NCBI GenBank assembly: GCA_027624795.1
Contig: JAQBTX010000005.1
Location: 1 to 36,430 of the forward strand
Source of the DNA: a bacterium
Lineage (GTDB): Bacteria > Patescibacteriota > Microgenomatia > UBA1406 > GWC2-37-13
Direction of reading: 5' to 3'
Length of the DNA stretch: 36,430 bases
Below, piece by piece: positions 11,831-28,939 of this stretch; the first letter of the stretch is position 1, and every line of letters starts with the position of its first letter. The position numbers were made by a program, and so were the translations under genes. Under the pieces are notes generated by a model. It had not been told where the DNA came from, did no database searches, and was given only the letters and a program-made list of their open reading frames with translations.

Positions 11831-12469
11831 ATGAAACAAGTACCCTTTTACTCCAATACCCCCGATAACACCCATTGCTTTCAAGCGGTTATCAAGATGA
11901 TAGCTAAAAATTATTGGCCAGATACTAATTATTCATGGGATGACTTGGACCATATTACGGAGAAAAAAGCAGGATTGTGGACATGGCCTATGGCTGGTTA
12001 TATCTGGCTTGCAAACAAAGGACTTAAAATTGAGAGCAGTAGCATTTTTGATTTCCATGGATTTTATAGTGAAGGTTACGATTACTTCTTAAGAACGTTT
12101 GGCAAAGAAATTGCTGATGGGCAATATGAGCACACAGATATGAAACAAGGACAAATGCTTGCAGAACAATTTGTAACCCACAATGGGATTGTGCATAAAG
12201 CCGAGATTCCTTCAAATAGCAATATTCAAGCTAAACTGAAAAATGGTTACTTGGTAGTATGCAATCTAAATCAGTATGCATTAAATCAAAAAGAAGGGTA
12301 CTCAGGTCATTTTGTATTAATATACGACTATGACGACAAAGGACTCACAATGCACGATCCTGGCCTACCATCATATGAAGCGCGCCATGTATCTTATGAT
12401 GTTTTTGGTAAGTCATGGGCATATCCAGACGGAAAAGCAAGGAATTTGACAGCCATAATGAAGTATTGA
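11831..12469 (+). CDS. peptidase C39-like papain-fold protein
   Basis: Start re-assigned to MKQVPFYSNTPDNTHCFQAVIKMI; catalytic-type Cys (THCFQA), His (GHFVLIYDYD) and Asp (MHDPGLP). Confidence 0.75.
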   Translation: MKQVPFYSNTPDNTHCFQAVIKMIAKNYWPDTNYSWDDLDHITEKKAGLWTWPMAGYIWLANKGLKIESSSIFDFHGFYSEGYDYFLRTFGKEIADGQYEHTDMKQGQMLAEQFVTHNGIVHKAEIPSNSNIQAKLKNGYLVVCNLNQYALNQKEGYSGHFVLIYDYDDKGLTMHDPGLPSYEARHVSYDVFGKSWAYPDGKARNLTAIMKY

Positions 12470-12484
12470 TCTCTCCAGAGGGAC

Positions 12485-12527
12485 GGTCCCCCTTCAAGAA
12501 GGGGGTGCCCGTTAGGGCAGGGGATGT
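12485..12527 (+). repeat. double-hairpin repeat, family B (left copy flanking the DUF559 ORF)
   Basis: GGTCCCCCTTCAAGAAGGGGGTGCCCGTTAGGGCAGGGGATGT; stems CCCCCTT/AAGGGGG and GCCC/GGGC. Confidence 0.85.
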
Positions 12528-12537
12528 ATTAAACTAA

Positions 12538-12906
12538 TTGAATGAAGCCAACCCCTACAACCCAAGTCTCAGGAAACTTGCTAAAGATATGAGGAATAAT
12601 AGCACTCTCTCTGAAGTATTACTATGGAAATGTATTCAAAAAAAGAAAGTTAATGGCTATACGTTTCTTAGACAAAAACCACTTCTTAACTATATAGTTG
12701 ATTTCTATTGTCCAGAGCTCAATGTTGCTATCGAAATAGATGGATCTGTCCATGAATATGCAGAAGCAAAAGATCAAAAAAGACAAAAGGAGCTTGAACA
12801 ACATAGAGTTCGTTTTATCCGATTTTTAGATCATGATATTCGTAAAAATCCCGATGGTGCAGTACAAGTTATTGAAAAGTGGATTAAGGAGAATACCCAG
12901 AAATAA
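12538..12906 (+). CDS. DUF559 (Vsr-like) endonuclease domain protein
   Basis: KLAKDMRNNSTLSEVLLWKCIQKKKVNGYTFLRQKPLLNYIVDFYCPELNVAIEIDGSVHEYAEAKDQKRQKELEQHRVRFIRFLDHDI. ORF starts with TTG at 12538; first in-frame ATG at 12541. Confidence 0.92.
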   Translation: MNEANPYNPSLRKLAKDMRNNSTLSEVLLWKCIQKKKVNGYTFLRQKPLLNYIVDFYCPELNVAIEIDGSVHEYAEAKDQKRQKELEQHRVRFIRFLDHDIRKNPDGAVQVIEKWIKENTQK

Positions 12907-12954
12907 CATCCCTCCCTCCGCCTATGGCGGAGTACTCCCTTTCCAAGGGAGATC
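12907..12954 (-). repeat. double-hairpin repeat, family B (right copy, inverted relative to the left)
   Basis: CATCCCTCCCTCCGCCTATGGCGGAGTACTCCCTTTCCAAGGGAGATCT; stems CTCCGCC/GGCGGAG and CTCCCTT/AAGGGAG. Confidence 0.85.
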
Positions 12955-12992
12955 TATAAAATGACTAAATTAATTATGATAAGATTACTCAT

Positions 12993-13538: not shown

Positions 13539-13588
13539 ACATCCCCCGATCCCGATAAATCGGGATCGCCCCCTTCATAAGGGGGACC
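13539..13588 (-). repeat. double-hairpin repeat, family B
   Basis: ACATCCCCCGATCCCGATAAATCGGGATCGCCCCCTTCATAAGGGGGACC; followed at about 13600-13620 by a further imperfect hairpin CTCTCTTCTTGAAGGGAGAG. Confidence 0.85.
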
Positions 13589-13634
13589 AATATTTAGTAC
13601 TCTCTTCTTGAAGGGAGAGCCCTGACAAGACTAT

Positions 13635-18329: not shown

Positions 18330-18343
18330 ATTAATCTAAAATT

Positions 18344-18406
18344 TGTCATGCTGAACTCGTTTCAGCATCTTTATAACATAGATCCTGAAATAAATTCAGG
18401 ATGACA
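18344..18406. repeat. dispersed palindromic repeat, family A
   Basis: TGTCATGCTGAACTCGTTTCAGCATCTTTATAACATAGATCCTGAAATAAATTCAGGATGACA; nearly identical to 28656-28718. Confidence 0.9.
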
Positions 18407-21530: not shown

Positions 21531-22682
21531 ATGACAAGAAAAATAGCCTTACAACCATCCACAATTCAAGAAGTAATTACCGTGCTCAAAGCGGGAGGAT
21601 TGGTGGTGTTTCCCTCAGATACGGTATATGGATTGTTGGTTGATGCAAAAAATAAAGCAGGAGTGAGTAAGTTACTTACTTTTAAAGACCGACCACCGGG
21701 CAAAGCGGTTTCAGTATTCATACCTTCATTTGAGTCTATAAGTACCTATGCAACGCTAAGCAAAAAAAATTCACAAACACTCAAGCAAGTATTACCAGGA
21801 GCATTTACCATCGCACTTCCGTCCAAGCATGTTCTTGATACTCGTTTAGAATCAGAAAAGGGAACGCTGGGTATTCGACTTCCCAACTACCCACCAGTTC
21901 AAGAACTCGTATCTCAATATGGTTCACCAATCACTGCGACAAGCGCCAATATGGCTGGTCGGAGTCCAAACCATTCAATTGATTCATTACTCAATCAGTT
22001 ATCTAACGTAAAAAAAGACATGATCGATCTTATAGTCGACGCGGGGAAGCTTCCAAGAAATAAGCCATCAACCGTGATCGACCTATCTGGAGACACCATA
22101 CAAACCATTCGTCAGGGAGATGCACAATTATCTTCATCTGAAACTTTTAGCTCAATATCACCAGAAGAAACGCAACAAATAGGAAAAAACATCTTAAGTT
22201 CTATAACACTCGAGAAGCCACTCGTCATTATTCTTACTGGAGATTTAGGAGCTGGTAAAACCGAAATGACACGGGGTATTGCATCGCATTTTAATATCAC
22301 CAATATAATATCTCCTACGTATGTTGTTTATTATGAATACGAAATTTCCCCCCTAGTTCCCTCTCAAAAAGGCAAGCTCGATTCAAACCAATTTATTCAT
22401 GTAGATTTATATAATATTCAGGAAGAGGATGAATTTAAAGAGCTCAACCTCCAATCATATCTTATTCCCGGAAATGTGATGGTTATTGAGTGGGGAGAGA
22501 AAGTCGGACCGCTTTATGATCAATTGAAAAAATATGCTCAAATGATATATGTGAATATTGAACATGTGAATGAGAAAAAGAGAGAAATTGAAATTAGAAT
22601 CCAGATTTATCACGTCATCCCGACCAACGTGGAGGGATCCCTCGACTCCGCTCGGGATGACAATGCATGGATCCTTCGTTAA
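21531..22682 (+). CDS. TsaC/YrdC (Sua5-type) - TsaE fusion, t6A biosynthesis
   Basis: N-half GGLVVFPSDTVYGLLVDAKN...ITATSANMAG (YrdC); C-half VIILTGDLGAGKTEMTRGIA...SPTYVVYYEY...HVDLYNI...VIEWGEKV (TsaE P-loop). Confidence 0.93.
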   Translation: MTRKIALQPSTIQEVITVLKAGGLVVFPSDTVYGLLVDAKNKAGVSKLLTFKDRPPGKAVSVFIPSFESISTYATLSKKNSQTLKQVLPGAFTIALPSKHVLDTRLESEKGTLGIRLPNYPPVQELVSQYGSPITATSANMAGRSPNHSIDSLLNQLSNVKKDMIDLIVDAGKLPRNKPSTVIDLSGDTIQTIRQGDAQLSSSETFSSISPEETQQIGKNILSSITLEKPLVIILTGDLGAGKTEMTRGIASHFNITNIISPTYVVYYEYEISPLVPSQKGKLDSNQFIHVDLYNIQEEDEFKELNLQSYLIPGNVMVIEWGEKVGPLYDQLKKYAQMIYVNIEHVNEKKREIEIRIQIYHVIPTNVEGSLDSARDDNAWILR

Positions 22683-28519: not shown

Positions 28520-28528
28520 ATATATTGA

Positions 28529-28643
28529 GGTCCCCCTTTAGGAAGGGGGTGCCTGTAAGGCGGGGGATGTTATTTAAAACAAAGAAAAGAGTACATCCCT
28601 TCCCCCGACGTGACGTCGGAGGGCTCCCTTTTCAAGGGAGACC
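28529..28643. repeat. inverted pair of family B double-hairpin repeats with about 22-bp core (REPIN/MITE-like)
   Basis: GGTCCCCCTTTAGGAAGGGGGTGCCTGTAAGGCGGGGGATGT ... ACATCCCTTCCCCCGACGTGACGTCGGAGGGCTCCCTTTTCAAGGGAGACC. Confidence 0.88.
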
Positions 28644-28655
28644 ATACATGATGAT

Positions 28656-28718
28656 TGTCATGCTGAACTTGTTTCAGCATCTTTATAAAATAGATCCTGA
28701 AATAAATTCAGGATGACA
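28656..28718. repeat. dispersed palindromic repeat, family A
   Basis: TTGTCATGCTGAACTTGTTTCAGCATCTTTATAAAATAGATCCTGAAATAAATTCAGGATGACA; about two differences from 18344-18406. Confidence 0.9.
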
Positions 28719-28747
28719 AAAAATTATTATCAATTTTATTTATATAT

Positions 28748-28939
28748 ATGGAAACAAAAAAATGTTCGAAATGTCAGGGAGAGATGGAAGAGGGGATTAT
28801 TCCAACTTATAGTCTGGGAGCTATACCACCATCATTTTGGGTTAAAAAAATTAGCTTTATCAAAGGATTGGAAAATAAACACAATATTATTGCTTACCGT
28901 TGTAAATCTTGTGGCTTTCTTGAAAGCTACGCAAAATAG
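28748..28939 (+). CDS. small zinc-ribbon protein
   Basis: METKKCSKCQGEMEEGI...AYRCKSCGFLESYAK; two CxxC motifs. Confidence 0.7.
   Translation: METKKCSKCQGEMEEGIIPTYSLGAIPPSFWVKKISFIKGLENKHNIIAYRCKSCGFLESYAK

Follow-up and report, generated by a model that had tools for sequence, protein, structure and literature searches.

RESULTS

A DUF559 gene lies between two inverted double-hairpin arms

The window, i.e., the whole 36,430-nucleotide stretch of Patescibacteria DNA that we analyzed, contains an ORF of 122 codons with a TTG start at positions 12538 to 12906 of the plus strand. It codes for a PD-(D/E)XK nuclease of the DUF559 family (PF04480), as indicated by a Pfam profile search (E = 4e-28, 97.9 bits), an AlphaFold2 model, and comparison with relatives in genome G065 of the same genus and on contig C47 of the window genome. 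As first proposed for this locus, the ORF is framed by two double hairpins inverted relative to each other. Arm A (12485 to 12527, plus strand) comprises a tail, GGTCCCCCTT-CAAG-AAGGGGG, a second hairpin (hp2), TGCCC-GTTA-GGGCA, and the head GGGGATGT, which is turned toward the gene. Arm B (12906 to 12955, minus strand) starts with the head ACATCCC over the stop codon, followed by CTCCGCC-ATA-GGCGGAG, CTCCCTT..AAGGGAG, and the tail AGATCT. The conserved head GGATGT points at the gene in both arms. Both were defined by their sequences and by hp2 pairing tests (stems of 5 versus 2.7 in shuffles for arm A and of 7 versus 3.4 for arm B), and arm A also by the repeat family to which it belongs. The gap between arm A and the ORF is 10 bp rather than the 11 bp initially given, and arm B begins on the third base of the stop codon (12906), confirming the placement of the right repeat. 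Directly outside arm A, GATCTCTCCAGAGGGAC (12468 to 12484, no strand assigned) is probably the remnant of a decayed outer B-type hairpin; the same remnant is present in genome G062.

Compared with the copies in G065 (loci L020 and L120, which are one record) and on contig C47, the window gene lacks one base close to its start, in the region 12538 to 12560. This puts the usual ATG (12542) in another frame, so that the TTG alone preserves the reading frame. The missing base may reflect either early decay of the gene or an assembly error.

The arms recur elsewhere in the window. A gene-less head-to-head pair consists of an arm A at 28529 to 28570 (plus strand) and an arm B at 28593 to 28643 (minus strand), as expected from the original prediction of an ORF-less copy there. 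G065 lacks about 410 bp between the same neighbors (28523 to 28933), corresponding to this arm pair, a GTCATGC repeat, and a small ORF resembling a zinc ribbon. An A-type arm identified by sequence, regular expression, and hp2 test (CGATCCCGAT-TT-ATCGGGATCG) is found 3′ of a LOG-family gene (13539 to 13588, minus strand). This copy had been described as single; the repeat is real, but a decayed B-type hairpin lies next to it at about 13597 to 13622.

Other palindromes were observed in the same stretch. A second family, GTCATGCTGAACTTGTTTCAGCATC...CAGGATGACA, is present at 18343 to 18406 and 28655 to 28718 in two copies that are 97% identical. Another palindrome, GTCATCCCGACCAACGTGGAGGGATCCCTCGACTCCGCTCGGGATGAC, at 22614 to 22661, lies within the 3′ coding end of an ORF (21531 to 22682) and runs into the beginning of the following one. 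Judged by eye, the former ORF is an apparent fusion of TsaC/YrdC-like and TsaE-like parts, and a TsaD-like gene follows directly.

Structure and relatives of the DUF559 protein

The AlphaFold2 model of the window protein (pLDDT of 90) and structure comparisons revealed a PD-(D/E)XK fold. Acidic and basic residues of the active site are conserved, with E26, D55, E66, D68, H72, and R95 invariant in an alignment of 67 sequences. Together with the PF04480 match, this bears out the earlier assignment of the enzyme as a DUF559 nuclease devoid of a Y1 domain. The closest solved structure by both sequence and fold is NGO0050 (3hrl), a DUF559 protein from structural genomics, followed by the catalytic domain of the homing endonuclease I-Bth0305I (3r3p; sequence E = 2.6e-4, Foldseek probability of 1.0). 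Vsr is a weaker fold match than these two. There is also remote likeness to methyl-directed nucleases (PADLOC mREase_II, E = 4e-6; PvuRts1I fold). No methyltransferase gene was found among the scanned neighbors of DUF559 genes. In Caulobacter, DNA is damaged by the DUF559 protein VsrA if the methylation presumed to be cognate to it is absent (PMC12907096), indicating that DUF559 proteins can act on DNA in vivo.

The arms belong to a repeat family dispersed in the genome

In the 1.07-Mb window genome, the palindrome CCCCCTTN{0,14}AAGGGGG was found in 14 copies versus none for the reversed control, and a broader pattern in 33 copies versus 1. With counts so far above those of the controls, these palindromes are not due to chance. 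Between A and B arms, the first hairpin (hp1) displays paired C-G to T-A double changes (CCCCC/GGGGG versus CTCCC/GGGAG). The sequence of hp2 is variable, and its pairing is nearly always kept, with a mean stem of 6.2 bp versus 3.2 bp when tested directly against shuffles. By these pairing patterns, both arm stems are real.

The genome contains five DUF559 genes on four contigs, and all five are located between inverted double-hairpin arms whose heads face the gene. Head subtypes match on the two sides of each gene: GATGT/ACATC on C23 and C47, GGTGGT/ACCACC for the two genes on C71, and AGGTGT/ACACC on C44. In addition, gene-less tail-to-tail pairs of approximately 100 bp are inserted in frame inside tatD, leuS, valS, gatB, polX, and miaA, where they translate to peptides such as HPPSSGHPLPEGGPAHDLPFKGSTPP. 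Comparisons with orthologues of the same genus revealed gain or loss of these in-frame units: that of valS is common to G065 and that of tatD to G062, those of gatB and polX are present in the window genome only, and miaA of G065 harbors a truncated remnant. The layout proposed for the window, in which inverted hairpin repeats enclose the gene and pairs without a gene lie elsewhere, thus holds far beyond it, and the four additional arm-flanked genes, the in-frame copies, and the cross-phylum spread described below extend the first reading.

Other insertions were seen in the same genes. In the window genome, gatB contains a second, different in-frame palindromic insertion, VIASAAKQSNSKEIATSTTSPRNDK. 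Repeats related to the second family of the window (GTCATTCCCGCG) are found in valS, leuS, and tatD of G062 and G063, in the same permissive loops as the DUF559-type units of the window genome.

Occupancy of the window site differs between genomes of the genus

We compared the window site in related genomes. It is empty in G063, where the two flanking genes overlap without any insertion; G062 has a solo arm A, and both the window genome and G065 have arm A, the DUF559 gene, and arm B. The solo arm in G062 may mean either that the gene and arm B joined an existing arm or that they were lost in G062. The search for empty sites in relatives, proposed at the outset, therefore yielded empty, solo, and full states but no precise empty/filled pair in near-identical genomes.

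Two observations were made on G065. In its arm A, 5′ of the DUF559 gene, the loop of hp1 is split by another palindromic sequence, TCCGCCAGAGGCGGATCAGCCTTTGGCTGAC. On its contig C78, a DUF559 gene is located between two complete two-arm units rather than two single arms.

Inverted repeats flank DUF559 genes in many phyla

We searched for relatives and collected 80 DUF559 loci spread over many phyla. For the 72 loci tested, the score is that of the best inverted repeat spanning the gene. Fifty-three of the 72 exceeded the 99th percentile of random intervals from the same loci, where 0.7 would be expected, and 54 exceeded the same percentile when the controls were 1,053 other ORFs from those loci. 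Armed loci were found in Bacteroidota, Planctomycetota, Chloroflexota, Marinimicrobia, Spirochaetota, Desulfobacterota, Hydrogenedentota, and Cyanobacteriota and in one Lysobacterales MAG; the typical form in Bacteroidota is AATTCCCCTCTTGAGAGGGGTTAGGGGTGTGT-gene-ACACACCCCTAACCCCTCTCAAGAGGGGAATT. Enrichment of repeats around DUF559 genes, on which the original prediction had staked itself, was thus found across phyla (54/72) and in Pontibacter (86/89; see below). The window cassette itself scored only 8 and was missed by this sequence-level method, because what its two arms have in common is structure and ends, not sequence. As cassettes of the window type escape the scoring, the cross-phylum figures are likely underestimates. 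The same scoring showed no clear arms at the DUF559 genes of Escherichia coli, Neisseria, Azospirillum, and most cyanobacteria, indicating that the DUF559 family is mixed.

No armed, near-identical empty/filled pair was found in plasmid and phage collections. At three cyanobacterial plasmid loci (L282, L283, and L284), DUF559 genes are found beside genes for PglX (BREX) or DUF1156 proteins and VapC or PIN toxins. The arms of the plasmid matches beside PglX or DUF1156 genes are weak or absent, and this context is possibly a second, defense-linked setting for the family.

Nuclease and arm subtypes go together in Pontibacter

One to eight DUF559 matches were detected in 46 of 50 Pontibacter species. 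Flanking inverted repeats were found at 86 of the 89 loci tested, with a median score of 33 compared with 12.5 for the 99th percentile of the controls. Six arm classes, A to F, were distinguished, with 26 of 129 loci not assignable to any of them. DUF559 protein identity was strongly correlated with arm similarity (Mantel r = 0.848, n = 76), as was still the case with one locus per site and class (r = 0.826, n = 38); in both analyses none of 2,000 permutations gave a value as high. The nearest protein neighbor had the same arm class for 72 of 76 loci, and for 33 of 38 in the reduced set, with 7.5 expected by chance. Each nuclease subtype is thus coupled to an arm subtype of its own. The class D arm was found in both orientations relative to the gene.

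Pontibacter sites are occupied differently from one species to another. One site has a class A, C, or D cassette depending on the species. At another, species show either no insertion, a lone palindrome, paired arms lacking DUF559, or a complete cassette (class A, B, or D). Loci L200 and L210, whose flanks are approximately 90% identical, have different DUF559 genes at one site. Comparison of one site across the 50 species showed several states with flanks too divergent to fix the boundaries, and among near-identical strains we did not encounter any precise empty/filled pair.

Orphan repeats track the nuclease in some classes

Repeats are also abundant away from the genes. Counted as exact patterns in assemblies of varying quality, class D repeats numbered up to 123 per Pontibacter genome, with zero for reversed controls; class C and E repeats were counted in the same manner. 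Many orphans form inverted pairs with a repeated spacing, of about 108 bp with heads inward for class E and, with heads outward, of about 70 bp for class D and 105 bp for class C. No target-site duplication was visible at 20 class E units, 20 class C or D units, or 74 cassette ends. Cut-and-repair or single-strand routes fit these ends better than DDE transposition.

The four Pontibacter species without DUF559 had 1, 3, 16, and 0 repeats in total, compared with a median of 46 (P = 0.002, uncorrected for phylogeny). In the Patescibacteria family, hairpins were more numerous in genomes with DUF559 (P = 5e-5, also uncorrected for phylogeny). Repeats are therefore scarcer in relatives lacking the gene, as the original prediction required. 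Copy number was likewise proposed to track DUF559, and this held by class for two of three classes, in comparisons uncorrected for phylogeny: class D orphan copies numbered 32 with a class D nuclease versus 10 without (P = 0.0022), and class E copies 21 versus 2 (P = 0.0023). In class C, repeat number did not follow the presence of a matching nuclease (P = 0.22). Many class D or E repeats are also found where no nuclease of the same class is assigned, e.g., in G100 and G102 (class D) and G114 (class E), which speaks against the reading of the cassette as a mobile unit.

DISCUSSION

We propose that DUF559 genes such as these, together with the inverted hairpin arms around them, constitute a unit that is mobile or spreading, a functional analogue of the RAYT/REPIN system, and we assign this reading a probability of about 0.6. 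Its broader version, in which DUF559 proteins would be the dedicated mobilizers of a large, previously unrecognized superfamily of palindromic repeats, spanning at least eight phyla, with subtype-specific arms and driven by a PD-(D/E)XK enzyme without a transposase, we regard as an even bet. The nuclease would recognize the arm of its own class, probably when single-stranded DNA exposes it as a hairpin, and nick or cut at this arm or at a target; during repair, a unit would then be copied into the break. Its own cassette may be a substrate in cis, and gene-less pairs may be substrates in trans. The in-frame copies would be the survivors of selection against disruptive insertions. Cleavage of the arms and mobilization of the unit by DUF559 are what we infer from the genomic patterns.

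The arms might instead be REP- or MITE-type repeats moved by another enzyme, Y1 or other, with DUF559 as passive cargo or a hitchhiker caught between them. Y1 transposases (PF01797) are indeed available, with two matches in the window genome on other contigs (C20 and C52) and occurrences in 52 of 72 members of the Patescibacteria family. Long terminal inverted repeats sometimes flank RAYT genes (PMC3733652), and this reading would account for the orphan arms retained by genomes to which no matching nuclease could be assigned. However, passive capture is not expected to place DUF559 between arms at nearly all Pontibacter loci and across phyla, nor to make arm class follow DUF559 phylogeny, and no Y1 transposase was detected in G064, G065, and G012 (completeness of 66, 91, and 89%), all of which have arms and DUF559. 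We therefore consider this explanation unlikely. That arms and nuclease form a selfish addiction or guarding pair, in which DUF559 spares or cuts the arms in a state-dependent manner, as a Vsr- or restriction-like enzyme would, seems to us quite improbable. Their co-occurrence would then reflect maintenance, not mobilization. The harm done by Caulobacter VsrA to cells without the cognate methyltransferase (PMC12907096), the remote likeness to methyl-directed nucleases, and the PglX or DUF1156 neighbors on some cyanobacterial plasmids agree with such a pair, but it leaves unexplained the inverted flanking pairs, the differing cassettes at one site, and the dispersed gene-less pairs of set spacing.

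The arms are GC-rich intergenic hairpins, often beside stop codons, as would be expected of ordinary terminators, insulators, or mRNA-stabilizing hairpins of DUF559 operons. Nevertheless, they are also found upstream of the gene, as mutually inverted copies across it, in frame inside the conserved genes listed above, and as gene-less pairs of set spacing, and they are missing from the other ORFs of these loci. Plain terminators were rejected on these grounds, and regulatory hairpins in general are a very remote prospect.

Among known systems, the mobile unit that we favor most resembles RAYT/REPIN (REPtron; PMC2817692, PMC3116915). In both, the enzyme gene is located beside or between palindromic repeats, repeats of the same class are dispersed as singlets and inverted doublets, and an enzyme-specific repeat class is combined with cross-phylum spread. 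The RAYT enzyme is a Y1 HUH transposase, unlike the PD-(D/E)XK DUF559. GTAG is absent here, the arms of the window genome ending in GGATGT, GGTGGT, or AGGTGT and those of Pontibacter in other tags. RAYTs are reported to be single copy, whereas Pontibacter genomes have up to eight DUF559 copies, and DUF559 arms occur in two orientations relative to the gene. Lacking the Y1 domain and the GTAG tag, the system was rejected as a member of the RAYT family. TIRtrons (TIRYT; PMC3733652) similarly have long inverted repeats around the gene and related repeats elsewhere in the genome, but with a tyrosine transposase. REPs with a CGTC tag have been described as devoid of a dedicated transposase (PMC3733652).

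I-Bth0305I and Vsr share their fold and recognizable sequence similarity with DUF559. Homing endonucleases are encoded inside an intron or intein and cut the intron-less allele, whereas DUF559 has no such host and is free-standing between hairpin arms at many unrelated sites, and membership in the intron homing endonucleases was rejected for this reason. Vsr nicks next to T:G mismatches that arise from a linked cytosine methyltransferase; DUF559 is not known to have such a role. Rickettsia palindromic elements are also inserted in frame in conserved protein genes, and we know of no enzyme dedicated to them. The units described here end in ACATC/GATGT, neither belong to that sequence family nor carry its CGTC tag (PMC3733652), and have an associated nuclease. 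Bacterial MITEs are similar in being short, gene-less inverted-repeat elements that look like deletion versions of an enzyme-bearing element. They derive from DDE transposons, with a target-site duplication and a DDE transposase encoded elsewhere, and no such duplication was visible at the DUF559-type units examined.

Many palindromic repeats of bacteria have no known mobilizing enzyme. No connection between DUF559 and repeats was found in the open-access papers searched. Our comparisons suggest that, for one common class of such repeats, DUF559 enzymes may be the missing partners responsible for their spread. If so, a common domain of unknown function would gain a role, and it would become possible to test how thousands of repeats, intergenic or in frame, arose. 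Spread driven by a nuclease alone, with no DDE or Y1 transposase and no serine or tyrosine recombinase, would then be open to study in culturable hosts such as Pontibacter.
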